In this document: one piece after another, positions 4,803 through 22,343 of the stretch | Numbering within the stretch: position 1 is the first letter of the stretch | Layout: the number at the start of each line of letters is the position of its first letter | Origin: Massilia rhizosphaerae | Lineage (GTDB): Bacteria > Pseudomonadota > Gammaproteobacteria > Burkholderiales > Burkholderiaceae_D | Direction of reading: 5' to 3' | Assembly (NCBI RefSeq): GCF_016093545.1 | Contig: NZ_JADKYX010000001.1 | Location: 372,001 to 436,000, forward strand | Length of the DNA stretch: 64,000 nt | Program-made: the position numbers and the translations under genes | The notes under the pieces: generated by a model | What the model saw: only the letters and a program-made list of their open reading frames with translations | What the model was told of the DNA's origin: nothing | Database searches by the model: none

Positions 4803-6332
4803 TCAGGCCGGCGTGTCCCGTCCCGGCGCCAGCGCGGCCGCCCCCAGCGGCGCGAGCGCCGGTCCTTCCAGCACCCGTCCGTCCGGGCCGAAGCGGCTGC
4901 CGTGGCAGTGGCAATCCCAGCTCGTTTCCGCAGCGTTCCAGGTCAGTTCGCATCCCATGTGCGAGCACTTGCCGGCCACGGCCAGCAGCGCGCCGTCCGC
5001 GCGGCGGTAGACGGCGACCGGCTGGCCGCCGACGGCGATCTTGCGGCTCCGGCAGGGCGGCAGGTCCGCCAGCCGCGCCTGCGTGATGGCGTCGAGTTCG
5101 GGCAGGCGGTCCGGTGCGGCCGGTCCCGTGCTTTCGCGCTTGAATCCGTCGGGCCGCCCGCCGGACAGCAGCCGCGCGGGATCGTACAGGCCGTGGCAGG
5201 GATGCACGCGCCCGAGGATGCCGTCGGCCAGCAGCATGCCGGCCAGCGTGCCGTATACGAGCCCGTCGGCCGAGAAGCCGGTGGCGATCCATGTGCGGGC
5301 CGCGTCGACGTTGCGGCCGATGAACGGCAGCTTGTCCCGCGCGCGGTAGCGCTGCGCCGACCAGCGGTATTCGACCGGACCGATGGGAAAGCGGTCGCGC
5401 GCGAATGCGTCGAGGCGGCGGTAGCGCTCGTCGCCGACGGCGGCGCCAGCCGGGTGCGCGCTGCCGACGACGACCAGGTAGGGCCGGCCGAATGCCGTGT
5501 GGCTGCGCAGCGAGTGATTGTCGGCGCCGAGGCTCCAGTAGATGCCGGGCGCCGGCTGGGCGTCGTGCAGCGGCGCGGCGATCGCGTATTCGCGCACCGT
5601 CTCCAGCTGCGACTGGACGAGGTGGATGCCGGCCGGCGTGTGCGTCGCCAGCACGATGGCGGCGGCGGTCACGCTGCCCTGTTCCGTGCGGACGGCGCCG
5701 GCGGCATCGTCGACGGCCAGCACGCGGGTGTTCTCGAACACGAGGCAGTTCTCGCCGGCGATGCGCAGCAGCAGCTGGCGCAGGTAGTCCAGCGGCTGGA
5801 ACTGGGCTTGGGCGTCGATGCGCAGCGCCCGTTCCAGCGCGACGGCCGGATGCAGGCCGACCGCGGCGCCGTCCATGAGGCGGGCCGGCAGGCCGGCGCG
5901 GACGGCCGCCGCGTGCTCGATCTCGATGGCGCGCACGTGCGCCGCGTCCGCCGCGATCAGATGCCACGGCACGCGCCGGAAGCCGCATTCGAGGCCAAGG
6001 CGGGCCACCGTCGCCTCGATCAGGTCGACGGCGGCCGCGCGCCCGGCCACGACCTGGCGCACGGCGTCCTCATCGCGTTCCCGTTCGAGCGTGGCGAGGC
6101 CCATGTCGACGGGCGCGTACAGATTGCCCGTCGAGTGGCCGGAACTGCCGCCGCCCACCCGGTCCGCTTCGAGGACGGCGACGCGCCGGCCCGCTTCGAC
6201 CAGGCGCATGGCCGTCGTCAGACCCGTGATGCCGGCGCCGACGATGGCGACGTCGACGACGATGTCCGTTTGCAGGGTGGGCAGGCAGGCCGTCCGCGCA
6301 GCCGTGCCTTGCCAGAGCGAAGTCGTGTCCAT
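4803..6332 (-). CDS. FAD-dependent oxidoreductase with C-terminal Rieske [2Fe-2S] domain
   Basis: A 509-residue fusion of a DAO-type flavin oxidoreductase and a Rieske iron-sulfur domain. The dinucleotide-binding motif VGAGITG lies at residues 31-37, followed by the acidic end of strand 2 (LEAD) and a GHSTGN segment. The Rieske cluster ligands are visible as C456-x-H458 and C474-x2-H477, separated by 15 residues. Homologous fusions are annotated as gamma-glutamylputrescine or glycine oxidase-like enzymes; the true substrate is unknown. There is no signal peptide, so it is probably cytoplasmic. It lies 84 bases upstream of the preferred start of the AI-2E permease. Confidence 0.87.
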   Translation of the reverse strand: MDTTSLWQGTAARTACLPTLQTDIVVDVAIVGAGITGLTTAMRLVEAGRRVAVLEADRVGGGSSGHSTGNLYAPVDMGLATLERERDEDAVRQVVAGRAAAVDLIEATVARLGLECGFRRVPWHLIAADAAHVRAIEIEHAAAVRAGLPARLMDGAAVGLHPAVALERALRIDAQAQFQPLDYLRQLLLRIAGENCLVFENTRVLAVDDAAGAVRTEQGSVTAAAIVLATHTPAGIHLVQSQLETVREYAIAAPLHDAQPAPGIYWSLGADNHSLRSHTAFGRPYLVVVGSAHPAGAAVGDERYRRLDAFARDRFPIGPVEYRWSAQRYRARDKLPFIGRNVDAARTWIATGFSADGLVYGTLAGMLLADGILGRVHPCHGLYDPARLLSGGRPDGFKRESTGPAAPDRLPELDAITQARLADLPPCRSRKIAVGGQPVAVYRRADGALLAVAGKCSHMGCELTWNAAETSWDCHCHGSRFGPDGRVLEGPALAPLGAAALAPGRDTPA

Positions 6333-6552
6333 GGCGATGATCCTCCGTGTGCGCTTGTCTGCATGGATGATCCCGGCAATCGCCGCCGGGCGGCGCAGCC
6401 TTGACCGTAGTAAATGCCGCGCGCCGGACCCGGCGGTTACGGCACGTAACGTGCGGGGCGAGGGGGAATCGCGATGCTATTCTGGTTTTTTCGGCGGCGC
6501 GCGGGCGGTTCCGCGCGCGCCGGCTCATGGAATCGGAACCGGCACGCGGCAC

Positions 6553-9500
6553 ATGACACGGAATATGGAACAGGACACGGCACGGCAGGCGCAACGGAAC
6601 GCGGACGCGGACGCTCGTTGCGCCAGCGCGGCGGCGTACGCGGCATTGACGGCGTCGCTCTACGACGCGTTCTGCGTCGCCGCCGACGTGCGCACGGACG
6701 CCGCCGGCCGCTGCACCGGTTTCCGCTACCTGGACGCCAATCCCGCCTGCGTGGCCCTCACCGGGCGCGCGGCCGGCGCCGCCTGGTCGGCAGGCGACGC
6801 CGGACCGGAACGCGCGTGGTGCGACGCCGTCGGCCGCGTTGCGCGGGGCGGCGCGGGCGAGCGGTTCGAAAGCCGCCTGGCGGACGGCGCTTCCTGTTAC
6901 GACGTGCACGTGTTTCCCGTTCCCGGCGGCTGTCCGGCCGGGGCGGTCGGGGTGCTGTGCCGCGACATCTCCGCGCGCAAGAAGGAAGAGGGGGCGCTGC
7001 GCGAAAGCCGCGAGCGCAAGGCGTTTCTGCTGCGCCTGATGGACAGCCTGCGCACGCTGGCCGATCCGCTCGCCATGCAATGCGCGGCGGCGCGCGTGCT
7101 GCGCGAGCATCTGCGCGCGGCCGCCGTCGTGTTCTGGGAGGCCCGCGGCGAGGGCGAATTCGCCGCGGCCGGCGCCGCCTGCGCGGACGGCGCGGCCCGG
7201 CACGCGGGTCGCTGCCGCATGGCCGATCATGACGCCGCGCCCGCCGCCGAACTGCGCCTGGGCCGCATCGTCGCCCGCACGGACGCCCGGGCCGACGCGC
7301 TGCTGAGCGACGCGCACCGCGCCGCGTTCGGCGTCGACGGCGAGCACGCCTGGGCCATCGTCCCGCTCGCGAAGGATGGGCGCCTGCTGGGCATGTTGTC
7401 GGTCCTGGCCGCGGGGCCGCACGCGTGGCGCCGGCGCGAGCTGCGGCTGATGCAGGCGGTGGCGGAGCGCACGTGGGCGGCCGTCGGGCGGGCCCGCGCC
7501 GAGGAGTCGCTGCTGCGCTCCGAACAGAAGTACCGGTCGCTGTTCGACGCCATCGACGAGGGGTTTGCCCTCATCGAAACGATCTTCGACGCGGCGGGCC
7601 GGTGCGTCGACTACCGCTTCCTGGAGGTGAACCGGGCGTTCGAGCGCCAGACGCGGCTCGCGGGCGTCACGGGCCGGCGCGCGCGCGAGCTCGTGCCGGA
7701 CCTGGAGCAGGACGTGATCGACCGCTATGGCCGCGTCGCCGTCACGGGCGAACCGGAGCGTTTCGAATGCTGTATCGCGGGCATGGGCGGCGCCTGGTAC
7801 ACGGCGTACGCCGCGCGCGTCGGCGGCGCCGGCAGCCGCGAGGTCGCCGTCGTGTTCGACGACGTCACGCAGCGCAAGCGCGTGGAACGGGCCGCCGTCG
7901 CGCGCGCCGCGCGCCAGGCCTTCCTGCTCGAATTGAGCGACGCGCTGCGGCCGCTCGTCCAGCCCGACCGCGTGCTGGCCACGGCGAGCCGCCTGCTCGG
8001 GCGCCACCTGGGTGTGCAGCGCGTGGTGTTCGCCGAGTTCTCGCGCGTGGGCGTGGACGTGCGCACGGGCTGGGCCGATGGCCTGGCGCCGATGGATGGC
8101 TATTATCCGGCCGGCACCGGCCGGCCCACGGCGCTGTACGCGGCCAGGGGCGCGCGCCTGCTCGTGGTCCGCGATGCGGCCGATGCGCGCGAGCTGCCCG
8201 CCGCCGATCGCGCGGCCTGCGCGGGCGACGGCGTGGCCGCGCTGATCGGCGCCGGCATCGTGTACCACGACCAGCCGGTCGGCATGCTGGTCGTGCACGC
8301 GACGGCGCCGCGCGACTGGAGCGAGGACGACGTCACGCTGGTGCAGGAGGTGGCGGAGCGCACGTGGGCGATGGTGGAACGGGCGCGTGCCGACGCCGCG
8401 CGGCGCCTGGGCGAAACGCGCCTGCGCCGCATGCTCCGTATTCCCACAGTCGGCATCGTCCATTTCGATGCCGCCGGCGCCGTCGTGCAGGCCAACGACG
8501 CGTTCCTGGCCATCACCGGCTGCACGCGCGCGGCGCTGGAGACGGGCCTGCTGCGCTACGACGAATTCGCGCCGCCGGCGTGGCGCGACGGCGACGACGA
8601 CAGCAGCCAGCCGTTCGAGTGCGCGTGGGTGCGGCCGGACGGGCGCCGCGTGTGGATCCTGTGCGCCGCCGCGCGGCTCGATGCGCGCACGATCGTCGAA
8701 TTCGTCATCGACGTGACGGACCGGCGCGAAGCCCAGGAACAGCTGCGCGAGAGCGAGCTGCGCCACCGCGCGTTCAGCAGCCTCGTGCCGGTCATGATGT
8801 GGGAGACCGACGCCGACGGCCGGCACGTGACGCCGAACCAGCGCTGGCTGGAGTACACGGGCCAGTCCGTCGAGGACACCCGGCACGGCGGCTGGCTGGC
8901 GGCCATCCATCCGGGCGACCTGCCGGATGCGCGCCGCGCGTACGCCGACGCCGTCGCGGGCGGGCGGCAGCTGGAGCTGGAATACCGCGTGCGCGGCGCC
9001 GACGGCGGCTACCGCTGGTTCCTCGTGCGCCAGCGCCCCGTGCGCGACCCCGAAGGCACGATCCGCGCGTGGTACGGCGCGGCCATCGACATCGATGCGC
9101 GCCGCCAGGCCGAGGCCGCGCTGCAGGAAAGCGAAGGGCGCTTCCGCGCGCTGGCCGATGCGGCGCCGGCCTTGATCTGGCAATTCGGCGCGGACGGCCG
9201 GCTCGTCTACGTGAACCGGCGTTACGCGGAAGTGACGGGCGCCACGCTCGACCGCCTGCTCCCGGACGGCTGGCGCGCCGGCGTGCACCCGGACGACCTG
9301 CCGTACTTCCTGACCGCGTCCGGCGACGCCATTGACGACCGCGTGCCGTTCCACCTGCGCCTGCGGGTGCACGCCGCGGGCGGGGACTGGCGCTGGTTCG
9401 AGGTGCATTTCGCGCCGTGGTTCGCCCGCGACGGCGCGTACCGGGGCCACGTGGGCATCGGCATCGACATCTCGGACGGCGTGCAGGCGGAAGACGCGCT

Positions 9501-10626
9501 GCGCGAGGCGGACCGGCGCAAGGACGAATTCCTGGCCGTCCTCGCGCACGAGCTGCGCAACCCGCTGGCCCCGATCAGCAACGCCGTCGAGATGCTGCGC
9601 TGCGCGGACGGCAAGCGCAAGGCCGACCGCGTGATGGAGATGGCGAGCCGCCAGGTCAAGCACATCACGCGCCTGGTGGACGATCTGATGGAAGTGTCGC
9701 GCATCACCCGCGGCAAGATCGAGCTGGCGCGCCAGCCGGTGGCGCTCGCCGACATCCTCGCCGGCGCCGTCGAGACGAGCCGTCCGGCCCTGGACGGCGC
9801 CCGCCACGCGTTCGTCCAGCACCTGCCGGGCGAGCGCCTCGTGCTCGATGCCGACAAGGTGCGCCTCACGCAAGTCTTTTCCAACCTCTTGAACAACGCG
9901 GCCAAGTACACGGACCCCGGCGGCCGCATCGAGCTGTGCGTCCGGCGCGACGGCGGCCATGCGCTGGTGGCCGTGCGCGACAGCGGCATCGGCATCCCGC
10001 CCGACAAGCTGGGGCAGGTGTTCGGGATGTTCGCCCAGGTCGAGGAGGCGGGCGCGCGCAGCCAGGGCGGGCTCGGCATCGGCCTGGCGATGGTCCACAA
10101 GCTGGTCGAGATGCACGGCGGCAGCGTGCAGGCGAAGAGCGAAGGGCGGGGCCGGGGCAGCGAATTCGTCGTGCGCCTGCCGCTGCTGCCGGAATCCGCG
10201 CTCCCGGCGCAGGAGGCGCCGGCGGCGGGAGCGCGCGTCCTCGCGGGCATGCGCGTGCTCGTCGTGGACGACAACCGCGACGCGGCCGATTCGCTGTGCT
10301 TCCTGCTCGGATCGCTGGGCGTGGACGCCCATTGCGCCTACGGCGGCGAGGACGCGCTGCGCCGCGTGCCGCAACTGCGGCCGGACGCCGTCGTGCTGGA
10401 CATCGGCATGCCGGGCATGGACGGCCACGCGGTGGCGCGCGTCCTGCGCGCCGACGCCCGCAACGACGGCGTGCGGCTGTTCGCGCTGACGGGCTGGGGC
10501 CAGGAGGGCGACCGCGAACGCACCCGCGCCAGCGGTTTCGACCACCATCTCACCAAGCCGGTCGACCTGGACGCGCTGCAGCACCTGCTGCTGGAAGGCG
10601 TGCGCGAGCGCCAGGCCGCGCGGTGA
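6553..10626 (+). CDS. Multi-PAS/GAF hybrid histidine kinase with C-terminal receiver
   Basis: A 1357-residue cytoplasmic sensor kinase with no membrane segment. Reading the sequence gives PAS (about 30-136), GAF (155-312), PAS (323-443), GAF (453-611), then three PAS domains (623-726, 733-853, 860-976). These are followed by HisKA (988-1053), HATPase (1097-1211) and a receiver (1231-1350). The phospho-accepting His is H999 in the H-box HELRNPL. ATP-lid motifs NLLNNAAKY, DSGIGIP and GGLGIGL are intact. The receiver acceptor is D1283 in LDIGMPGMDG, and its conserved lysine sits in TKP. The start at 6553 is a guess: an ATG at 6565 is equally possible and neither has a strong ribosome site. No response regulator gene is adjacent, so output must be elsewhere. 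Confidence 0.88.
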   Translation: MTRNMEQDTARQAQRNADADARCASAAAYAALTASLYDAFCVAADVRTDAAGRCTGFRYLDANPACVALTGRAAGAAWSAGDAGPERAWCDAVGRVARGGAGERFESRLADGASCYDVHVFPVPGGCPAGAVGVLCRDISARKKEEGALRESRERKAFLLRLMDSLRTLADPLAMQCAAARVLREHLRAAAVVFWEARGEGEFAAAGAACADGAARHAGRCRMADHDAAPAAELRLGRIVARTDARADALLSDAHRAAFGVDGEHAWAIVPLAKDGRLLGMLSVLAAGPHAWRRRELRLMQAVAERTWAAVGRARAEESLLRSEQKYRSLFDAIDEGFALIETIFDAAGRCVDYRFLEVNRAFERQTRLAGVTGRRARELVPDLEQDVIDRYGRVAVTGEPERFECCIAGMGGAWYTAYAARVGGAGSREVAVVFDDVTQRKRVERAAVARAARQAFLLELSDALRPLVQPDRVLATASRLLGRHLGVQRVVFAEFSRVGVDVRTGWADGLAPMDGYYPAGTGRPTALYAARGARLLVVRDAADARELPAADRAACAGDGVAALIGAGIVYHDQPVGMLVVHATAPRDWSEDDVTLVQEVAERTWAMVERARADAARRLGETRLRRMLRIPTVGIVHFDAAGAVVQANDAFLAITGCTRAALETGLLRYDEFAPPAWRDGDDDSSQPFECAWVRPDGRRVWILCAAARLDARTIVEFVIDVTDRREAQEQLRESELRHRAFSSLVPVMMWETDADGRHVTPNQRWLEYTGQSVEDTRHGGWLAAIHPGDLPDARRAYADAVAGGRQLELEYRVRGADGGYRWFLVRQRPVRDPEGTIRAWYGAAIDIDARRQAEAALQESEGRFRALADAAPALIWQFGADGRLVYVNRRYAEVTGATLDRLLPDGWRAGVHPDDLPYFLTASGDAIDDRVPFHLRLRVHAAGGDWRWFEVHFAPWFARDGAYRGHVGIGIDISDGVQAEDALREADRRKDEFLAVLAHELRNPLAPISNAVEMLRCADGKRKADRVMEMASRQVKHITRLVDDLMEVSRITRGKIELARQPVALADILAGAVETSRPALDGARHAFVQHLPGERLVLDADKVRLTQVFSNLLNNAAKYTDPGGRIELCVRRDGGHALVAVRDSGIGIPPDKLGQVFGMFAQVEEAGARSQGGLGIGLAMVHKLVEMHGGSVQAKSEGRGRGSEFVVRLPLLPESALPAQEAPAAGARVLAGMRVLVVDDNRDAADSLCFLLGSLGVDAHCAYGGEDALRRVPQLRPDAVVLDIGMPGMDGHAVARVLRADARNDGVRLFALTGWGQEGDRERTRASGFDHHLTKPVDLDALQHLLLEGVRERQAAR

Positions 10627-12227: not shown

Positions 12228-12477
12228 GGTTTTTGCGGTTTCCCATGCGCCGCGCATGGAAATATTGAGTATTTCCTTTGATTCTAATTAACAGAATGGC
12301 GATAATGTCACGCCGCCAACTCGCTGACCGGCACTGTTTTTGCATGCCGGACGGCCAGGCAGGCCCGAGCCCAGGAGGAGACCGCCTCGAGCGAATGCAG
12401 GTGCAGGCCAACCGCCCGCCCACCGCGCGCACAATAATCAGGGACCGGGTTTTATCTACTATCGATTGGAGAAAGCA

Positions 12478-13884
12478 GTGAGTCTTTTCAGAACCAAGAA
12501 TCTCGACAACATGGTCGCGGCCTCCCGTACCCCGGGCGGGCTGAAGAAAGTGCTGGGGCCAACCGACCTCATCCTCATGGGCATCGGGGCGATCGTCGGC
12601 ACCGGTATCTTCGTGCTCACCGGCACCGGCGCCCTCACGGCCGGCCCGGCGCTGACCCTGTCGTTCATCGTCGCCGCCATCGCATGCGGCTTCGCGGCCA
12701 TGTGCTACGCGGAATTCGCGTCGACGGTGCCGATCGCCGGTTCGATCTATACCTACAGCTATGCCGTCCTGGGCGAACTGGTCGCCTGGATGATCGGCTG
12801 GGACTTGCTGCTCGAGTACGGCCTGGCGACGTCGGCGGTGTCCGTCGGCTGGTCCGGCTACTTCCAGTCGCTGTTGAAAGGCTTCGGCATCGTCATCCCG
12901 CAGGCGTTGTCCGCCGCGCCGGGCGCGCTGCCGAACGTGCACACCATCATGAACCTGCCGGCGCTGTGCATCATGCTGGTGCTGACGGCGATGCTGTCGT
13001 GGGGCGTGCGCGAATCCGCCCGCGTCAACAACGTCATGGTCGCGATCAAGATCACCGTCGTCCTCCTGTTCATCTTCGTGGGCGTCAAGCACGTGACGCC
13101 GGCCAACTGGCATCCGTTCGCGCCGTTCGGCGCGTCCGGCGTCATGAGCGCCGCGGCCGTCGTGTTCTTCGCGTTCATCGGGTTCGACGCCGTGACGTCG
13201 GCCGCCGAAGAGGTCAAGCGTCCGGAACGCGACCTCCCGATCGGCATCATCGGTTCGCTGACGATCTGCACGATCCTGTACGTGATCGTGTCCGCCATCA
13301 TGACCGGCATCGTCCCGTTCAGGCTGTTCGAAGGCAGCATCGACCACCCCGTGTCGCTGGCGCTGCAGTACGCCGGCGAAAACTGGTTCTCCGGCTGGAT
13401 CGACCTGGGCGCCATCCTCGGCATGACCACCGTGATCCTCGTGATGGCCTATGGCCAGACCCGCATCATCTTCGCGATGTCGCGCGACGGCCTGCTGCCG
13501 CCGAAGCTGTCGACCGTGCACCCGAAGTTCGGCACGCCGTTCTTCGCCACCTGGATGGTCGGCATCGTGTTCGGCCTGATCGCCGCGTTCGTGCCGCTGA
13601 ACGTGCTGGCGGAGCTCGTCAACATCGGCACGCTGGCCGCATTCTGCCTCGTGTCCATCGCCGTGATCGTCCTGCGCAAGAAGCGTCCCGACCTGAAGCG
13701 CGCGTTCCGCTGCCCGGGCGTGCCCGTCGTGCCGGCGATCGCCGTCGTATTCTGCCTGGCGCTGATGTGCTTCCTGTCCGCGATCACGTGGATGGCGTTC
13801 GGGATCTGGCTGGTGCTGGGCCTGATCGTCTACTTCGGCTATGCGCGGGCCCGTTCCGCGCTGAACGTGGCGGCGCAATCGTAA
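12478..13884 (+). CDS. APC-family amino-acid permease (cationic amino-acid transporter type)
   Basis: A 468-residue, twelve-segment inner-membrane transporter. The first helix carries the substrate-binding GIGAIVGTGIF motif, and the sixth shows FFAFIGFDAVTSAAEE, both typical of the CAT/YfnA branch. Transport of a basic or neutral amino acid is likely. The gene starts at a GTG with TGGAGA about eight bases upstream and a 468-aa length normal for the family. Its neighbour on the same strand is the cyanophycin locus, which consumes and releases arginine and aspartate. Import of one of these is plausible but not shown. Confidence 0.87.
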   Translation: MSLFRTKNLDNMVAASRTPGGLKKVLGPTDLILMGIGAIVGTGIFVLTGTGALTAGPALTLSFIVAAIACGFAAMCYAEFASTVPIAGSIYTYSYAVLGELVAWMIGWDLLLEYGLATSAVSVGWSGYFQSLLKGFGIVIPQALSAAPGALPNVHTIMNLPALCIMLVLTAMLSWGVRESARVNNVMVAIKITVVLLFIFVGVKHVTPANWHPFAPFGASGVMSAAAVVFFAFIGFDAVTSAAEEVKRPERDLPIGIIGSLTICTILYVIVSAIMTGIVPFRLFEGSIDHPVSLALQYAGENWFSGWIDLGAILGMTTVILVMAYGQTRIIFAMSRDGLLPPKLSTVHPKFGTPFFATWMVGIVFGLIAAFVPLNVLAELVNIGTLAAFCLVSIAVIVLRKKRPDLKRAFRCPGVPVVPAIAVVFCLALMCFLSAITWMAFGIWLVLGLIVYFGYARARSALNVAAQS

Positions 13885-13995: not shown

Positions 13996-15453
13996 ATGAC
14001 CTCTATGTTTGTCGCCGCCAGCCAGGACCGCGCCATGGCGCGCGGCGGCCGGCCCGCCCGGGTGCCGGCCGCCAAGGATCTGTATCGTGCGCTGCTGGAC
14101 GACGCGGCCGGCTGCCGCGACGCGGCGCCGGCCTTCCTGCGCGCGCAGGTCGCGCTGGCGCGCGCGGAACCGTGCGAACTGCCGGACGCCGTGTGGCAGT
14201 TGCAGGGCTGGATCCAGGGCCGCGCCGAGTCCGTCGGCATCGCGTACCGCGAATACCTCGCGGCGCGCAGGAACGGCGCCCCGCGCCGCTATTTCACGAA
14301 CACCTCGCACGCGCTGTACTTCCTGAGGGGCGTCGCGCCGACGAAGCTCGTCGACGGCGCCTGGCTGTACGGCACCCTGGCGCGCTGGGACGACCCCGAC
14401 TTCCACCCGCTGATCAAGACCTGTCTCGAAGAGCTGGGCGACGGCGTGCCGGACAAGAACCACGTCACCTTGTACCGCCGCCTGCTCGCGGCGCACGGCT
14501 GCGAGGACTGGGAGACGCTGCCCGAGGACCGCTTCGTCCAGGGCGCGATCCAGCTGGCGCTGGCCCATCACGGGGACGATTTCCTGCCCGAGCTGGTCGG
14601 CTACAACCTCGGCTACGAGCAGCTCCCGCTCCATCTATTGATCACGTCGTACGAATTGAACGAGCTGGGGATCGATCCGTATTACTTCACCTTGCACGTC
14701 ACGGTGGACAATGCCGGCAGCGGCCACGCGCACAAGGCCGTGCGGGCGCTGTCCAACCTGATGGCGCGCGCGAGCGATCCGGCCGCGTTCTTCGCGCGCG
14801 TGCTGGACGGCTACCGCCTGAACGACCTGGGCGCATGCACGACGTCCGTCATCGGCGCGTTCGACCTGGAAGCGGAGCTCGTCGAGATCCTCGGCGCCAA
14901 GGCCGCCATCGGCAGGAATATGCATTCGGACTACTGCCGCGTGGCCGGCCGCACCGTCAACGACTGGCTGGCCGACCCGCGCCAGGTCCCCGCCTTCCTG
15001 GCGGCGCTGGAAGACGCGGGCTGGATCCGGCGCGGCGAGGACGTCGAACGGAGCCGCTTCTGGCGCTTGATCGAGGGCGAGCGCGCCGAGATGTTCGGCG
15101 TGTTTTCCGGCTACGAGCGGCAGGTGCTGCGCGACTGGAGCGTCACGCCGCGCGACGCGGCGGCGACGGCGCGCACGGGCCGGGTGCTCAGCCACCGGGC
15201 CCGCCAGCGCGCGCTCGACGGCGTCATGCGGCACGGCGCGCGCGGCGGCCATGCGGAACGGGGCCTGATCCGGCACCGTGCCGGGGACGCCAGGGGCGAC
15301 CCGGCGCTGCACCGCCTGGAGGAACGCGTGGCCGCCACGCGCGGCAAGCGGGAGGCGATGGCCATGCTGGCGCCGCTGATGGCGCCGTCCGTGCATCATA
15401 CGGCCATCGGCCTGATGGCCACGCGCATGTATTCGCAACTGCTCGACGCGTAA
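13996..15453 (+). CDS. Iron-containing redox enzyme family protein (haem-oxygenase-like diiron fold)
   Basis: A 485-residue protein with the marks of the 'iron-containing redox enzyme' family, related to haem-oxygenase-like diiron oxidases (HDOs). A glutamate-rich helix (SYELNELGID) is followed by H234-x3-D238-N-x4-H244-A. This matches the third-helix metal ligands of the superfamily in the DN...GHA variant. Characterised HDOs oxidise amino-acid or fatty-acid substrates with O2; none known to me acts on cyanophycin. The C-terminal 150 residues are helical and unrecognised. It is 57 bases upstream of the cphA paralogue on the same strand, which suggests an operon. A strong dyad overlaps its leader. 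Another ATG at 14035 is possible, but 13996 keeps more N-terminus. Confidence 0.75.
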   Translation: MTSMFVAASQDRAMARGGRPARVPAAKDLYRALLDDAAGCRDAAPAFLRAQVALARAEPCELPDAVWQLQGWIQGRAESVGIAYREYLAARRNGAPRRYFTNTSHALYFLRGVAPTKLVDGAWLYGTLARWDDPDFHPLIKTCLEELGDGVPDKNHVTLYRRLLAAHGCEDWETLPEDRFVQGAIQLALAHHGDDFLPELVGYNLGYEQLPLHLLITSYELNELGIDPYYFTLHVTVDNAGSGHAHKAVRALSNLMARASDPAAFFARVLDGYRLNDLGACTTSVIGAFDLEAELVEILGAKAAIGRNMHSDYCRVAGRTVNDWLADPRQVPAFLAALEDAGWIRRGEDVERSRFWRLIEGERAEMFGVFSGYERQVLRDWSVTPRDAAATARTGRVLSHRARQRALDGVMRHGARGGHAERGLIRHRAGDARGDPALHRLEERVAATRGKREAMAMLAPLMAPSVHHTAIGLMATRMYSQLLDA

Positions 15454-15510
15454 GAACGACCCTGGCGGCGCGGGCCCGCGCCGCGACGACAGGCAACACG
15501 AGGATATCCC

Positions 15511-17787
15511 GTGCAGATACTCGAACAACGCTTCCTGCGTGGACCCAACATCCATGCCGCCACCCCGTGCCTGCTGTCCGTGCTCGACCTGGACGACTTG
15601 TACGGCGTCTCCACCCGCGACCTCCCGCGCTTCAATGACGCGCTGCTCGACTTGCTGCCGTCGCTGGCCGACTATCTCGTGCCCACGGGCCAGCCGGGCG
15701 GCTTCGCGCAACGCCTGCGCGAAGGCACCTATCTCGCCCGCGTGATCGAGCACGTGACCCTGGGCCTGCAATGCCTGGCCGGCGCCCAGGTCGCGTTCGG
15801 GCGCACGCGGCCCGTGACCGGCGAGCCGGGCCAGTTCCGCATCGTCTGCGCCTACCAGCTGGAAAAGGTCGCCCAGCCGGCGTTCGCGCTGGCCGTGGAC
15901 ATCGTCGACGCGCTCGCGCACGACCAGCCGTTCGACGTGGCGCCGCGGCTGGACGATCTGCGCGCGCTGGCGGACCACTACGCCATCGACGCGAGCACGG
16001 CGGCCGTGCTGGCGGCCGCGCAGGAGCGGGGCGTCCCGGTGACGCGCATCACGGAAGACGCCAATCTGTTCCAGCTGGGCTGGGGCGTGAAGCAGAAGCG
16101 CATCCAGACCACGGTCACGGGCGACACGAGCACCATCGCCGTGCGCATCGCCGCCGACCGGCAGCTCACCCGGCAGCTCCTCCATGAGGCGGGCGTGCCC
16201 GTGCCGCAGGGCGAGCCGGTGGCCACGGTCGAAGGCGGCTGGCTCGACGGGGCGCACTGTCGCGTGCTCGTCGCCGGCGGCAAGGTCGCGGCGGCGGCGC
16301 TGCGCCGGACCGGGGACGGCGGCGGCGCCACGGTCGAAGACGTGACGGACCTGCTGCCGGCGTGCACGCGCCGCCTGTGCGTGCGCGCGGCCGCGAAGAT
16401 CGGCCTGGACGTGGCGGGCATCGACATCGTCTGCCGCGACATCGCCGTACCGCTGCAGGAGCAGGGCGGCGCCGTCGTCGGCGTCGACGCGGCGCCCGAC
16501 ATCCGCCTGCACCGGCAGCCGGACGGCGGCCAGCCGCGCGACGTCGGCGACGCCATCGCGGCGAGCCTGATGGACGATTCCGACGGCCGCATTCCGATCA
16601 TCGCCTGCACCGGCACGAACGGCAAGACGACGACCACCTTGCTGATGGCGCACACGGTGCGCCTGGCGGGGCGGGTCGCGGGCGTGACGTCCACGCACGG
16701 CGTCCACATCGCCGGCAAGGAAGTCACGAAGGGCGATTGCACGGGCTACTGGTCGGCGCGCACGGTGCTGGCGTCGCCGGACGTCGACTTCGCGGTGCTG
16801 GAGACGGCGCGCGGCGGCATCCTCAAGCGCGGCCTCGCGTTCGACCGCTGCGACGTCGGCATGGTGCTGAACGTGTCGGCCGACCACCTGGGCCTGGACG
16901 GCGTCGACACCATCGAGGACCTGGCGCAGGTGAAGGCCGTCGTACCGCTGGCGGCCAGCCGCGCCGCGGTGCTCAATGCCGAGGATCCGCTGTGCGTGGC
17001 GATGGCGCGCCGCGTCCATCCCGACGTGGAAGTCGTGTATTTCTCGATGGAGGCCGACAATCCCGTGCTGCTGCGCCACCTGGAAGAGGGCGGCCGCGCC
17101 GTCTACCTGCAGGACAATGCGATCGTCGTCGCCGACGCCACCTATCACCAGGAATTGCTGCGGGTCGAGGCGATGCCGATCGCGTTAGGCGGCCGGGCGC
17201 GCTACAACGTGGCCAACGGCCTCGCGGCGGCGGCCGGCCTGATGGCGGCGGGGTTCTCGAACCTGCAGATCGCGACGGGCCTGTCGACCTTCGTCAGCGA
17301 CGGCAAGACGAACCCGCTGCGCACCAACGTGTTCGACGTGCGCGGGGTGACCGTGATCGTCGACTACGCGCACAATCCCGCGGCCTACGCGGCGCTGGCC
17401 GCGATGGCGCGCTCGCTGCTGCCGGGCCAGCTGGTGGGCATCGTCACGGCGCCCGGCGACCGGCGCGACGCCGACCTGCTCGATGTGGGGCGCGTGTGCG
17501 CCGGCCGCTTCGACGAGCTGGTCGTGTACGAATCGTCCAGCCGCGGCCGTCCCTACGGCGGCGCCGTCGACCTGATCCTGCGGGGCGCCGAGGACGTCGT
17601 CGGCAAGACGGACACGCTGCACCGCGAACCGGACGTGGGCGAGGCGATCCGCCTGGGGCTGTCGCTGTGCCGGCGCGGGGACGTGCTCGTGTTCGCGTGC
17701 GGCTCGTCGCTGGACGTGTTCGTGGAGGCGATCCGGCAGATGGATCCCGAGAGTGCCGCGTGGATCGCGGCGCAGGCGGGCGGCTGA
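15511..17787 (+). CDS. Cyanophycin synthetase paralogue lacking the ATP-grasp core
   Basis: A 758-residue homologue of the CphA encoded on the other strand (863 aa). The N-terminal domain aligns throughout (LEQRFLRGPN, EDANLFQLGWG, DRQLT). The Mur-ligase half is intact, with P-loop TGTNGKTTT (K372), the LETARGGILKRGLAFD block and NVSADHLGLDG. Between them about 105 residues are missing in two blocks. One removes the KPLDANQGKG loop and the following helices up to RVLV. The other removes the segment from the ETENSN region to NLSTGGT. ATP-grasp chemistry, which adds aspartate to the backbone in CphA, therefore looks impossible. The Mur half, which adds arginine, looks functional. GTG start with GAGGA about eight bases upstream. 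Codon use is like the neighbours, so this does not look like decay. Confidence 0.85.
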   Translation: MQILEQRFLRGPNIHAATPCLLSVLDLDDLYGVSTRDLPRFNDALLDLLPSLADYLVPTGQPGGFAQRLREGTYLARVIEHVTLGLQCLAGAQVAFGRTRPVTGEPGQFRIVCAYQLEKVAQPAFALAVDIVDALAHDQPFDVAPRLDDLRALADHYAIDASTAAVLAAAQERGVPVTRITEDANLFQLGWGVKQKRIQTTVTGDTSTIAVRIAADRQLTRQLLHEAGVPVPQGEPVATVEGGWLDGAHCRVLVAGGKVAAAALRRTGDGGGATVEDVTDLLPACTRRLCVRAAAKIGLDVAGIDIVCRDIAVPLQEQGGAVVGVDAAPDIRLHRQPDGGQPRDVGDAIAASLMDDSDGRIPIIACTGTNGKTTTTLLMAHTVRLAGRVAGVTSTHGVHIAGKEVTKGDCTGYWSARTVLASPDVDFAVLETARGGILKRGLAFDRCDVGMVLNVSADHLGLDGVDTIEDLAQVKAVVPLAASRAAVLNAEDPLCVAMARRVHPDVEVVYFSMEADNPVLLRHLEEGGRAVYLQDNAIVVADATYHQELLRVEAMPIALGGRARYNVANGLAAAAGLMAAGFSNLQIATGLSTFVSDGKTNPLRTNVFDVRGVTVIVDYAHNPAAYAALAAMARSLLPGQLVGIVTAPGDRRDADLLDVGRVCAGRFDELVVYESSSRGRPYGGAVDLILRGAEDVVGKTDTLHREPDVGEAIRLGLSLCRRGDVLVFACGSSLDVFVEAIRQMDPESAAWIAAQAGG

Positions 17788-17801: not shown

Positions 17802-20393
17802 CTACACGGCTTGCGCCTCGATCCGGCTCGCCGTCGCGGGCGACGTCGGGCGGATCGCCTCGGTCAGTTCCGTGATCGACGACCCGCAGCCGAAGACCAG
17901 CACGTCGCCCGGTTCGCAACGCGCGAGGCCGGCGCGGATCGCCTCGTGCACGTCCAGTTCGACGCGCAGGTGGTCCACCTCGAACTTGCCGAGGCGCGCC
18001 CCGCGCACGAGCAGCGCCGCCACGTCGCCCGGCGCGCGGCCCCGGTTCGCCGTCTCGTACACGACCAGCTCGTCGAAACCGGCCGCGCACGTCTCGCCGA
18101 TGGCGACGAGGTCGTCGTCGCGCCGGTCGCCCGGTGCCGCGACGACGCCCACGAGCCGGCCCGGCGTCAGCGCGCGCGCCGTCTCGGCCAGCGCGGCGTA
18201 GGCGGGCGCGTTGTGCCCGTAGTCGAAGATCACGGTCACGCCGTCCACGTCGAACACGTTCGTGCGCAGCGGATTGTGCTTCCAGTCGGAGACGAAGGTG
18301 CGCAGCCCGGCCGCGATCTCCGCGTTGCCGAACCCGGTCGCGGTGAGCGCGGCGGCCGCCGCCAGCGCGTTGGCGATGTTGTAGCGCGCGGCGCCCTGCA
18401 GCGTGCACGGCATCGCGCGCACGTCCACCAGCGCCTCGTGGCGCGCGCCGTTCGCCAGCACGATCATGTTGTCTTCCAGGTAGATGGCGCGGCCGCCGTT
18501 TTCCAGGTGGCGCAGCAGGATAGGGTTGTCGGCGTCCAGCGCGAAGTACAGGATCTCCACGTGTTGCCGTAGTTCCGCGCACATCGCGACGCAATGGTCG
18601 TCCTCCGCATTGAGCACGACCGCGCGGCGCGCCCGCCCGGCGATGACGCATTTCACACGCGCCAGCTCCTCCACGGTGTCGATGCCGTCCAGGCCCAGGT
18701 GGTCGGCCGACACGTTCAGCACGACGGCGACGTCGCAGTGGTCGAAGGCGAGGCCGCGCTCGAGGATGCCGCCGCGCGCCGTCTCCAGCACGGCGAAGTC
18801 GACGTCGGGCGCCGCGAGCACGGTGCGGGCGGAACGGTAGCCCGTGCAGTCGCCCTTGACGATGCGCTCGCCGTCGATGTACACGCCTTCCGTCGTCGTC
18901 ACGCCCGTGCGCAGGCCCGCGAGGCGGGTCGCGTGGGCGATCAGGAGGCTGGTCGTCGTCTTGCCGTTCGTGCCCGTCACCGCGACGACGGGGATGCGGC
19001 CGTCGTCCGCGCCGAACAGCGCGTCGACGATGGCCGCGCCGGCGTCGCGCGGCGTGCCCCGGCTCGGGTACTGGTGCATGCGGATGCCCGGCGCCGCGTT
19101 GACTTCGATGATGCCGCCTTTCTGGTCGCGCAGCGGCCGGGCGATGTCTTCGCAGACGATGTCGATGCCGGCGACGTCCAGCCCGATCGTGCGCGCGGCA
19201 CGGATGCAGATGTCGCGCGTTTCTTCCGGCAGCAGGTCCGTCACGTCTTCGGCGGTGCCGCCCGTCGACAGGTTGGCGTTGCCGCGCAGGTCGACCAGGC
19301 TGCCTTCCGGCGGCACCGCGTCGAGGTCGTAGCCCTGGCGCGCGAGCACCTGCAGCGCGAGGTCGTCCAGCGGGATCTTCGTGAGGATGTTGGCGTGGCC
19401 GTCGCCGCGCGCGGGGTTGCTGTTCTCGGTCTCGACGAGCGCGCGGACCGTGGATACGCCGTCGCCCGTCACGTGCGGCGGCCGCCGCCACGACGCCGCG
19501 GCCACCTTGCGGCCCGTGACGAGCACGCGGTAGTCGCGGCCCCGCAGGTGTTCCTCGACGATGACGTGGGACCCGTACTGGCGGGCGAAGTCGAACGCGC
19601 GCTCGACGTCCGCCGGTGTCGCGCATGCGACGGTGACGCCCTTGCCCTGGTTGGCGTCCAGCGGCTTCACGGTGACGGGGCCCTTGAGACGGCGCGCCGC
19701 GCGCAGCGCCTGTTCCAGCGTCGTCACGGTGGCGCCGGCGGGCACGGGTACGCCGGCCTGGTCGAGCAGGGTCTTCGTCAGCTGCTTGTCGCCGGCGATG
19801 CCGACCGCCACGTGGTTCGTCGCGCCCGTGATGGTCGCCTGCAGGCGCTTCTGGCGGCTGCCCCAGCCCAGCTGGAACAAGTTCGCTTCCTCGGTCAGGC
19901 GCAGGCTCGGGATGCCGCGCCGGTGCGCGGCCGCCAGCACGGCCGCCGTGCTCGTGCCGATGGCGTGGCGGCGGGCCGTCTCGCGCAGCTCGGCGAGCGC
20001 CGCGTCCAGGTCGAACGCCTCGTGGCGCGCGCATGCCGCGATCAATGCGGTGGCCGTGCGCAGGGCTTGCGCGGCCACCTGTTCGACCGTGTAGCCGCAC
20101 ACGACGCGCGCGCGCCGCGGGCGGGACGTGTCGAGCCGGGTCATGCTGAACGCGGCGGGCGCGCCGGCCAGGCGCTGCAGCTCCATCACGACGGGTTCGA
20201 GGGCTTCGTGCTCCGCCTGGCAGTCGGACAGCCGCGCCGCGCCTTCCGCGGACATGGCGGGCAACAGCGCGAGCAGACGGGCGCCGAGGCCGGCGGCGTC
20301 GTGCCCGCCTCCGATGTCGAGGACGGCCAGCAGGCAGGGCGTCGCGGCATACAGGTTCGGACCGCGCAGGAAGCGTTGTTCGGCGATGTTCAT
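17802..20393 (-). CDS. cphA: Cyanophycin synthetase
   Basis: An 863-residue enzyme that polymerises aspartate and arginine into cyanophycin, using ATP for each bond. It has the N-terminal domain (1 to about 160), an ATP-grasp domain (roughly 218-470) and a Mur-ligase domain (471 to the end). The ATP-grasp domain carries K243 in KPLDANQGKG, VEEH, and the metal-binding IEVNAAPG. The Mur-ligase domain carries P-loop TGTNGKTTT (K478) and the LETARGGILERG block. In characterised CphA the first site adds Asp to the backbone and the second attaches Arg. ATG at 20393 overlaps the cphB stop in an ATGA, indicating translational coupling. It is the last gene of iaaA-cphB-cphA and ends 14 bases from the stop of the converging paralogue. 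Confidence 0.95.
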   Translation of the reverse strand: MNIAEQRFLRGPNLYAATPCLLAVLDIGGGHDAAGLGARLLALLPAMSAEGAARLSDCQAEHEALEPVVMELQRLAGAPAAFSMTRLDTSRPRRARVVCGYTVEQVAAQALRTATALIAACARHEAFDLDAALAELRETARRHAIGTSTAAVLAAAHRRGIPSLRLTEEANLFQLGWGSRQKRLQATITGATNHVAVGIAGDKQLTKTLLDQAGVPVPAGATVTTLEQALRAARRLKGPVTVKPLDANQGKGVTVACATPADVERAFDFARQYGSHVIVEEHLRGRDYRVLVTGRKVAAASWRRPPHVTGDGVSTVRALVETENSNPARGDGHANILTKIPLDDLALQVLARQGYDLDAVPPEGSLVDLRGNANLSTGGTAEDVTDLLPEETRDICIRAARTIGLDVAGIDIVCEDIARPLRDQKGGIIEVNAAPGIRMHQYPSRGTPRDAGAAIVDALFGADDGRIPVVAVTGTNGKTTTSLLIAHATRLAGLRTGVTTTEGVYIDGERIVKGDCTGYRSARTVLAAPDVDFAVLETARGGILERGLAFDHCDVAVVLNVSADHLGLDGIDTVEELARVKCVIAGRARRAVVLNAEDDHCVAMCAELRQHVEILYFALDADNPILLRHLENGGRAIYLEDNMIVLANGARHEALVDVRAMPCTLQGAARYNIANALAAAAALTATGFGNAEIAAGLRTFVSDWKHNPLRTNVFDVDGVTVIFDYGHNAPAYAALAETARALTPGRLVGVVAAPGDRRDDDLVAIGETCAAGFDELVVYETANRGRAPGDVAALLVRGARLGKFEVDHLRVELDVHEAIRAGLARCEPGDVLVFGCGSSITELTEAIRPTSPATASRIEAQAV

Positions 20394-21277
20394 GAGATGG
20401 GATTCCGTTTCGTGATGTGTTCCAGGAATTCGAGCAGCGGGGGGGGAATGCGCGCCGCGTCGCCGCGGCCGGCGCCGGGCAACGTGTATTTGCTCCCGGC
20501 GGGCAGCAGGTGCAGGCGCACGTCGATCAGTTCCGGCGTCGCGTGGTCGGCGATCTCGGCGACGTTCGTCGACATGGTGCGGCCGTCGACGACGGTGACG
20601 GCGCCTTCGCCCAGCACCTCGATGCCGACGCCGCGCTCGACGACGAGCGCCGTGTCCTCGTCGATGCCGACGCCCTGCAGGTACGGGTTCTGGGCGACGA
20701 CGGACAACAGCCGCGACAGGCGCTGGCGTTCCGAGAAGTGCTGGTCGATGACGATCTTGTGCAGGAAGCCCAGGCCCGCGCCCAGGCTCACGGAGCCCTT
20801 CTCGGGATGCAGTTCGGCGCGCCCCTGCGCCAGCATGTGGCCGGACATGGCCGACGCCCCCGCGCTCGTGCCGCCGATGCACGCACCGCGCAGCTTGAGG
20901 GCCGCGTGCATCGCCGTGTCGAGCAGCGTGCCGCCGATGAGGGCGAGCAGGCGTTTCTGGTCGCCGCCCGTCATGAAGATGCCGTCGGCGTCGCGCACGT
21001 CGCGGATGTGGTCCGCGTCGTTGGCGTCGCCGCGGCTGTGCAGATGCAGGTGCAAGTGGCGCGTGACGCCGAGGTCGGCGAACGCGCGGTCGTACGTCTC
21101 CCACATGTGGTCCGTGGCGGCGCTGGCGGCCGTGATGACGACGATCTTGGCGGCCGGGCCGCCGCACAGTTCGACGAAGCGCCTGAGGATCGTCATGTCG
21201 CGCTGCTTGTCTTCGCTGCCGCCGATGATCACGAGGTGGCCGTGGCTCGCCGCCACTTGTTCGCCCTGGGCGGTCAT
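20390..21277 (-). CDS. cphB: Cyanophycinase
   Basis: A 295-residue serine exopeptidase of family S51 that cuts cyanophycin into beta-Asp-Arg dipeptides. The nucleophile is in GTSAGASAM, and other family segments are IIGGSEDK, FMTGGDQ and QHFSERQRLSRL. There is no signal peptide, so it is the intracellular type. Both ends overlap neighbouring genes: its ATG overlaps the iaaA stop and its TGA overlaps the cphA start, each as ATGA. Placing the depolymerase and synthetase on one coupled message implies post-translational or substrate control to avoid a futile cycle. Confidence 0.94.
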   Translation of the reverse strand: MTAQGEQVAASHGHLVIIGGSEDKQRDMTILRRFVELCGGPAAKIVVITAASAATDHMWETYDRAFADLGVTRHLHLHLHSRGDANDADHIRDVRDADGIFMTGGDQKRLLALIGGTLLDTAMHAALKLRGACIGGTSAGASAMSGHMLAQGRAELHPEKGSVSLGAGLGFLHKIVIDQHFSERQRLSRLLSVVAQNPYLQGVGIDEDTALVVERGVGIEVLGEGAVTVVDGRTMSTNVAEIADHATPELIDVRLHLLPAGSKYTLPGAGRGDAARIPPPLLEFLEHITKRNPIS

Positions 21278-22188
21278 GGGGCGACGATCCGGGCGTGGGG
21301 CATGTCCTGGTTGCTGCGCGCGGCCGCTTCCGTGCGGCTCACGGCGATCAGGCCGATGGGCACCCTGGGGTCGAACAGGTCGACGCCGCGCTCGAGGGCG
21401 CGTTCGAGCGGCATGCCGTCCTCGATCCAGCCGTACACGGTGCGCGCCAGCAGGTGGCGCACGATCTGTTCGCCGATGCCGGTGGCGGCGACGGCGCCGG
21501 CCGGCCCGGCGTAGAAGCCGCTGCCGACGATCGGGGTGTCGCCCACGCGGCCCAGCAGCGACGGCGCCGAGCCGCCCGTGGACAGCGCCACGCCGACATG
21601 GCCGTCCGGGCCGCGCACGACGGCGCCGACCGTGTCGCAGGCTGCGTGCGCGGGCAGGTCGAGGGGCGTCTGGTAATTCCAGAAACGGAGGAACGCCTTC
21701 GCTTCCGGCGCGATCCCCGGCATCGCGGGCACGCTGCCGGCCAGCTCGCGCACGACTTTCTCGTGGGCCGCGCGCTGGTGGTCTGAAATCGTCGCGTGGG
21801 CCGGATGGCCGATGGCGGCGGCGAAGCGGCCGGCGCCTTCGCCCGCCAGCAGCCAGTGCGGCGTGTCCGCGACGGCCCGCGCCAGCAGAACGGGATTCCT
21901 GACGCCCTGCACGCAGGCGACGGCGCCGAGGCGGCCGCGGGTGTCCATGACGGCGGCGTCCATTTCGACCGTCGCGCCGTCCAGGCATAGCACGGACCCG
22001 CTGCCGGCATTGAAGCGGCCGTCGTCTTCCATCGAGACGACGGCGGCGTTGGCGGCGTCGAGCGCATCCGCGCTGACGGCCAGTTCCTCGACCGCCCGCC
22101 GCGCCGCGCGCTCGCAGCCGTCGTCGTACGCGCGCGGGCTCCCGGCGCCGCCGTGCACGACGATTGCATATCCTTGCGTCACGCTCAT
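21274..22188 (-). CDS. iaaA: Isoaspartyl peptidase / type 2 L-asparaginase
   Basis: A 304-residue Ntn-hydrolase that cleaves beta-aspartyl dipeptides and, in this operon, most likely the beta-Asp-Arg released by CphB. Visible motifs are VVHGGAG at the N-terminus, FNAGSGS, and the self-cleavage site before T186 in DTVGAV. The mature beta chain would begin at that Thr; the usual residue before it is Gly, here Asp. GGSAPSLLGRVGDTP and ATGIGEQIVR fit the substrate loop and core. ATG at 22188 has AAGGAG upstream. First gene of the iaaA-cphB-cphA operon. Confidence 0.93.
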   Translation of the reverse strand: MSVTQGYAIVVHGGAGSPRAYDDGCERAARRAVEELAVSADALDAANAAVVSMEDDGRFNAGSGSVLCLDGATVEMDAAVMDTRGRLGAVACVQGVRNPVLLARAVADTPHWLLAGEGAGRFAAAIGHPAHATISDHQRAAHEKVVRELAGSVPAMPGIAPEAKAFLRFWNYQTPLDLPAHAACDTVGAVVRGPDGHVGVALSTGGSAPSLLGRVGDTPIVGSGFYAGPAGAVAATGIGEQIVRHLLARTVYGWIEDGMPLERALERGVDLFDPRVPIGLIAVSRTEAAARSNQDMPHARIVAP

Positions 22189-22258
22189 CTTTTTCTTTTC
22201 TCCTTGCAATACTTTTGCCCTGCGCGCATCAAGCCCGCGCGGCAAGGCAGATACCGCA

Positions 22259-22273
22259 TTATGCAAAGCATAA
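22259..22273. promoter_or_regulatory. Dyad TTATGC-N3-GCATAA upstream of iaaA
   Basis: A perfect 6-base inverted repeat with a 3-base spacer lies about 70 bases upstream of the iaaA start. On the minus strand it contains CATAAT, a possible -10 element. It is a candidate operator for the cyanophycin catabolic operon, but no matching -35 was found. Confidence 0.35.
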
Positions 22274-22343
22274 ATGAGGAGAAACATCGGTTCGCTGGCC
22301 GTGTGGCTGTCGGACGCGGCTTACACGGCTCAGTCAGGCATCG

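Follow-up and report, generated by a model that had tools for sequence, protein, structure and literature searches.

The window, by which we mean the whole 64,000-nt stretch of DNA that was analysed, encodes a second cyanophycin synthetase (CphA) from which the ATP-grasp core is gone and in which the Mur half is kept. A sequence-only reading of the same DNA had proposed this architecture, and both the Pfam domains and the counts of conserved residues agree with it. The 758-aa protein, P0001, appears to be a specialised enzyme rather than the product of a broken gene. It lies in a genome of 7.0 Mb, and the named close relatives at its locus belong mostly to Massilia and Telluria (Oxalobacteraceae). 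The features of the locus are as follows.

12340–13884 (+): amino acid permease, start uncertain (domain search, locus comparison)
13996–15453 (+): iron-containing redox enzyme, PF14518 (domain search, locus comparison)
15511–17787 (+): P0001, ATP-grasp-less CphA paralogue, 758 aa (open frame, GTG start)
15511–15981 (+): N domain, edge approximate (alignment to 7wac, module edges of PMC9427784)
15982–16239 (+): G-core remnant 1, with the Glid loss of 52 residues at its end (7wac alignment, module edges)
16240–16320 (+): G-core remnant 2, with the losses of 4 and 64 residues (G-omega) (7wac alignment, module edges)
16321–16590 (+): G-core remnant 3, with E430G, N432D and G436D in the numbering of the neighbour CphA (conserved-residue comparison)
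16591–17298 (+): M-core, MurE-like (7wac alignment, conserved residues)
16612–16632 (+): Mur-site P-loop GTNGKTT, residues 368–374, in which K372 corresponds to TeCphA1 K499 (alignment)
17299–17757 (+): M-lid, in which R604 and H621 correspond to TeCphA1 R731 and H748 (7wac alignment)
17802–20393 (−): full-length CphA, 863 aa, convergent to P0001, with ATP-grasp and Mur sites present (frame, Pfam)
20390–21277 (−): cyanophycinase, Peptidase_S51 (domain search, locus comparison)
21274–22287 (−): isoaspartyl peptidase of the IaaA type, Asparaginase_2, start uncertain (domain search)

Domain losses and retained active site

The GTG start of P0001 is preceded by AGGA at 15501–15504. In a profile search, the protein matched the cyanophycin N domain and both Mur domains of Pfam with ATP-grasp absent, whereas the N, ATP-grasp, and both Mur domains were all present in the convergent neighbour. 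Relative to the full-length orthologue of Massilia phosphatilytica, P0001 has gaps of 52 residues after residue 243, 4 residues after residue 266, and 64 residues after residue 270, close to the approximately 50 and 65 residues estimated earlier. The KPLDANQGKG loop of the neighbour falls within the first gap and is thus gone, as had been noticed. In a phmmer alignment to Trichodesmium CphA1 (7wac), P0001 residues 2–235, 245–269, and 270–696 correspond to residues 2–238, 303–327, and 397–823, respectively; in TeCphA1, the Glid module spans 235–305 and G-omega 325–399 (PMC9427784). Judged by this alignment, the modules cut from P0001 are Glid and G-omega, both mobile parts around the ATP-grasp site; the protein has kept the N domain, the G-core, the M-core, and the M-lid. 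CphA1 (TIGR02068) shares these four remaining parts, and cyanophycinase and IaaA genes, with the P0001 locus; it differs in having an ATP-grasp G domain with P-loop, Glid, and G-omega, of which two blocks are absent from P0001 together with ATP-grasp residues. With residues called conserved when shared by 98% or more of the 54 full-length relatives compared, P0001 keeps 47 of the 92 conserved positions of the G domain; 34 are deleted and 11 changed, and the substitutions in the remaining G-core include the three listed above. Since Glid and G-omega are missing, backbone extension by P0001 should be impossible. Repeats of at least 16 nt at the deletion edges are imperfect matches in GC-rich DNA.

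The Mur half is whole, as the earlier reading had stated. All 96 conserved residues of the M domain are kept, and the GTNGKTT P-loop is present; loss of the Mur active site, which that reading had named as a sign of decay, was not seen. P0001 residues K372, T373, T395, E431, R604, and H621 match TeCphA1 K499, T500, T522, E558, R731, and H748, which touch ATP or Mg (PMC9427784), and the Mur-type M domain therefore has an intact ATP/Mg site of the CphA1 kind. It is 93 to 94% identical to the M domains of five full-length sister orthologues. The N domain had also been described as intact. Its fold and 25 of its 27 conserved residues are indeed kept, but the primer-making motif of the CphA N domain, Cx19HxxEH (PMC9262961), is absent by sequence check from P0001 and from the neighbour CphA, and it occurred in none of 19 ATP-grasp-less proteins tested.

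Structure prediction of P0001 alone, a check that the sequence-only reading had suggested, gave an AF2 model (pLDDT 88, pTM 0.87) that matches TeCphA1 with Z 50.5 and rmsd 3.1 over 738 aligned residues, at 40% identity. P0001 scores below both curated cyanophycin synthetase cut-offs (755 versus 850 and 744 versus 877 bits) and below the MurE cut-off (111.6 versus 257.3 bits), and is therefore left without a curated name. It shares the M-core and M-lid fold with MurE and other Mur ligases but differs from them in its CphA N domain and G-core.

Gene neighbourhood and other CphA copies

The redox enzyme and permease genes lie upstream of P0001, and the cyanophycinase and IaaA-type genes lie beyond the full-length CphA. 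This gene order is repeated in most same-genus loci; in other genera, members are rearranged or partly missing. The PF14518 gene often adjoins the cyanophycin cluster in the loci compared and has, by family name, a heme-oxygenase-like fold; a paper search for literature linking cyanophycin with "heme oxygenase-like" gave none. Further upstream, at 5818–10626 (+), a 1602-aa frame resembles by eye a multi-PAS/GAF hybrid sensor kinase.

A second pair, of a full-length CphA and a shortened copy of about 725 aa, is located on another contig (C34) of the same genome. The shortened copy (L008, 10581–12803, −) retains 70 of the 92 conserved G residues and 35 of the 96 conserved M residues; its P-loop is destroyed, its C-terminal M-lid is absent, and its Cx19HxxEH motif is intact. 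Like P0001, it is a reduced copy beside a full-length one, but it keeps the opposite half, and the literature names its kind merely as a second copy of cphA. Taken together, the two pairs give the genome both reduced kinds beside two full-length CphA.

Cyanobacterial CphA2, too, is a CphA derivative cut down to one active site. It has lost the M P-loop and M-lid and kept the G site (PMC9427784), so the reverse pattern that the sequence-only reading had pointed to is in print; the loss in P0001 is exactly the opposite, and P0001 is not a CphA2. We found no description of an ATP-grasp-less CphA in the open literature searched. Side-by-side cphA copies are reported in PMC10687191 and PMC5178258, the accessible parts of which do not describe the P0001 architecture; nor is an ATP-grasp-less CphA mentioned in the corresponding parts of a survey of cyanophycin clusters (PMC10206079) or described in those of PMC8560796 and PMC11844795.

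Recurrent loss under purifying selection

A search of 62 genomes of the genus found a gene of the P0001 lineage in 59 and none in 3. ATP-grasp parts are lost in 9 of the 59 (G000, G309, G296, G300, G308, G310, G294, G182, and G113); the 50 counted as undeleted include one cut by a contig end (G325) and one with a broken frame that was left out of the trees (G315, L146). The clade of the window holds five ATP-grasp-less members: the window, G309, Telluria antibiotica TW-1, Massilia pinisoli, and Massilia sp. Root335. G309 has the same double deletion as the window, with 61 and 67 residues gone; in the three named strains, G-omega is lost and the ATP-grasp loop is degraded. An assembly slip in P0001 is unlikely, because residues are missing at both positions in G309 as well and the second block is also gone in the three named strains, which makes four more genomes in the clade with related deletions.

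We compared nonsynonymous to synonymous rate ratios (omega) of this set with those of the full-length sisters, in 10 pairs each. By the NG86 method, the ATP-grasp-less set gave 0.02 to 0.18 for N, 0.04 to 0.17 for M, and 0.13 to 0.66 for the remaining G codons, versus 0.05 to 0.11, 0.04 to 0.14, and 0.02 to 0.13 (same G columns) in the sisters; one of four additional full-length pairs (G139 with G018) was also high, with 0.36 for G and 0.40 for M. In a codon model with the transition ratio fixed and omega taken from a grid, the best values for the ATP-grasp-less set were 0.05 (N), 0.05 (M), and 0.12 (G), compared with 0.03, the lowest value tried, for all three in the sisters and 0.05 to 0.08 in six other full-length orthologues. 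For the ATP-grasp-less set, fixing omega at 1 cost 65 log units in G, 165 in N, and 322 in M. N and M are thus upheld at nearly the level of the sisters, with omega slightly above that of the closest ones (0.05 versus 0.03). The G-core is relaxed relative to the sisters, not clearly so relative to the other full-length orthologues (0.12 versus 0.08), and is far from free. P0001 does not have the marks of a pseudogene: its frame is open, and omega is far below 1 in N, M, and the remaining G.

ATP-grasp loss in CphA paralogues is recurrent, in the same genus and in further genera. A second Massilia clade (support 99/98) consists of G310, G294, and G182 (L049) and is graded: G310 (L160) and G294 (L161), full-length by their HSPs, carry a G-omega deletion in the DNA, and G182 lacks nearly all of G. 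Six proteins of 680 to 701 aa from other genera have omega values of 0.09 to 0.22 for M and 0.17 to 0.32 for N (15 pairs), and in five proteins of 595 to 611 aa (G244, G170, G015, G078, and the second G248 gene) N is joined almost directly to M. Counts outside the genus are lower bounds, as three candidates were scored per genome. G248 carries two distinct ATP-grasp-less CphA (L042, 8257–10482, −, and L054, 6973–8904, −) besides full-length copies.

A single origin of 16 ATP-grasp-less proteins was rejected (p-AU 8e-40), as was one origin of the window clade together with G310 and G294 (p-AU 3e-57); one origin within the window clade was not rejected (p-AU 0.38). The five full-length sisters form a clade (100/99) placed among the five ATP-grasp-less members of the window clade. 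In the family tree, which includes a gammaproteobacterial group of 560 to 600 aa described below and leaves out L109 (cut by a contig end), the starred branches by themselves require five changes or more, and nine is the overall minimum; L108_8626m, L134_8923p, and L136_8935p, without the M-start pattern, are missing from one tree. The earlier reading had raised the question whether the double deletion marks a conserved clade: clades do exist, but they are several, small, and of separate origins. Homologues with a restored ATP-grasp core, which had been proposed as a sign of decay, were seen as well, and decay did not follow from them. The 50 undeleted orthologues indicate that the loss is recent and repeated; they are not evidence of decay, because N and M are under strong purifying selection.

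Proposed function and rival explanations

CphA1 alternates between two ATP sites. CphA2 works with the G site alone, and P0001 and its relatives would be the natural M-site counterpart. The core of the earlier reading, with Mur kept, ATP-grasp lost, the reverse of CphA2, and no simple decay, is supported by sequence and omega. Building on it, we consider P0001 to be probably a cyanophycin side-chain ligase with a Mur site only, which would make it the mirror image of CphA2; its catalysis, acceptor, and partner are inferred. P0001 would attach arginine (or lysine), at the expense of ATP, to the beta-carboxylate of the last Asp in (beta-Asp-Arg)n-Asp; the same M reaction is to be expected of it, since its M domain is 93 to 94% identical to those of the full-length sisters. 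Addition of the following Asp should be beyond it, so P0001 would have to take over chains lengthened by a full-length CphA, for which the convergent neighbour is the simplest candidate, and these could arrive by diffusion or within a mixed tetramer. Its N domain would keep the chain in place, and the residual G-core may seat it in CphA-like, perhaps mixed, tetramers. The predicted effect is that side-chain loading is raised, finished, or repaired by P0001 while the partner grows the backbone. Several observations count against this proposal. A full-length CphA of the P0001 lineage is missing from G182, G015, and G078, which have only a distant pair, so a fixed partnership with the neighbour is not general, and a tetramer contact through the G-core is closed to those relatives that have lost the whole G domain. 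Omega in N and M is also slightly above that of the closest sisters. The neighbour CphA has an intact Mur site of its own, which leaves the need for a second one unexplained.

The same three genomes would fit a stand-alone isopeptide synthetase that makes a small beta-aspartyl product, or serves another acceptor or amino acid, independently of cyanophycin and with an IaaA-type hydrolase. Consistent with this, the ATP-grasp-less gene adjoins an IaaA-type gene in G015, G078, and the C16 locus of G248, and the other cluster genes queried were not found in those 15-kb stretches. We nevertheless regard such an enzyme as unlikely for the window, where, as in most same-genus loci, a complete cyanophycin cluster surrounds P0001, and its M domain is nearly that of the full-length enzymes. 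A non-catalytic scaffold or regulator that links tetramers of the neighbour CphA through the G-core would account for the retention and constraint of the G-core in the window clade (grid omega of 0.12, with omega of 1 rejected by the margin given above). The Mur catalytic residues, all present in P0001, speak against a purely regulatory role, one of three that the earlier reading had offered beside an arginine-adding partner and a ligase for another amino acid, and the G-core is wholly absent from other ATP-grasp-less proteins; we consider a scaffold very improbable.

Decay would make P0001 a redundant second CphA that is shedding pieces and due to disappear. The 50 of 59 same-genus orthologues that carry no such deletion, the graded deletion sizes among relatives, the relaxation of the remaining G codons relative to the closest sisters, and the 3 of 62 genomes in which the lineage has no match are all compatible with such a course. 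It is made improbable by omega values far under 1 in N and M, by N and M being open in all 21 ATP-grasp-less frames examined, and by a six-member ATP-grasp-less clade that persists in another genus. It is also M that is the half retained, with at least 83 of the 96 conserved residues in each of 15 ATP-grasp-less proteins compared.

Beyond the side-chain ligase proposed for P0001 itself, we suggest tentatively, as a less probable reading, that cyanophycin synthesis has repeatedly been split between a full CphA for the backbone and a Mur-only paralogue for side chains, which might use another amino acid or work within mixed tetramers. ATP-grasp would apparently have been lost stepwise, G-omega first in two Massilia clades, in a deletion series mirroring CphA2 that runs among the relatives from G-omega to Glid and then to all of G. 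An enzyme of the kind proposed for P0001 would load side chains without polymer growth, which would be useful for modified cyanophycins.

Shorter Mur-domain proteins resemble P0001 in having a Mur domain with P-loop, in lacking ATP-grasp, and in adjoining a full CphA. In 7 of 369 genomes of the class (Gammaproteobacteria G495, G689, G593, G588, G377, G516, and G621; L151–L157), a CphA-like frame of 560 to 600 aa directly follows full-length cphA. Of the 398 phylum genomes searched, 31 matched at E ≤1e-20, and in four of these (G1070, G767, G944, and G1071) a frame of 588 to 618 aa appears to lie close to one of 938 to 947 aa. The 560- to 600-aa group differs from P0001 in forming a separate, long-branched group in the tree and in an N-domain kinship that is only hinted at: its first 160 residues match the CphA N domain weakly (hhalign E of 0.0025, probability 12%). 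The group may represent an earlier form of this architecture.
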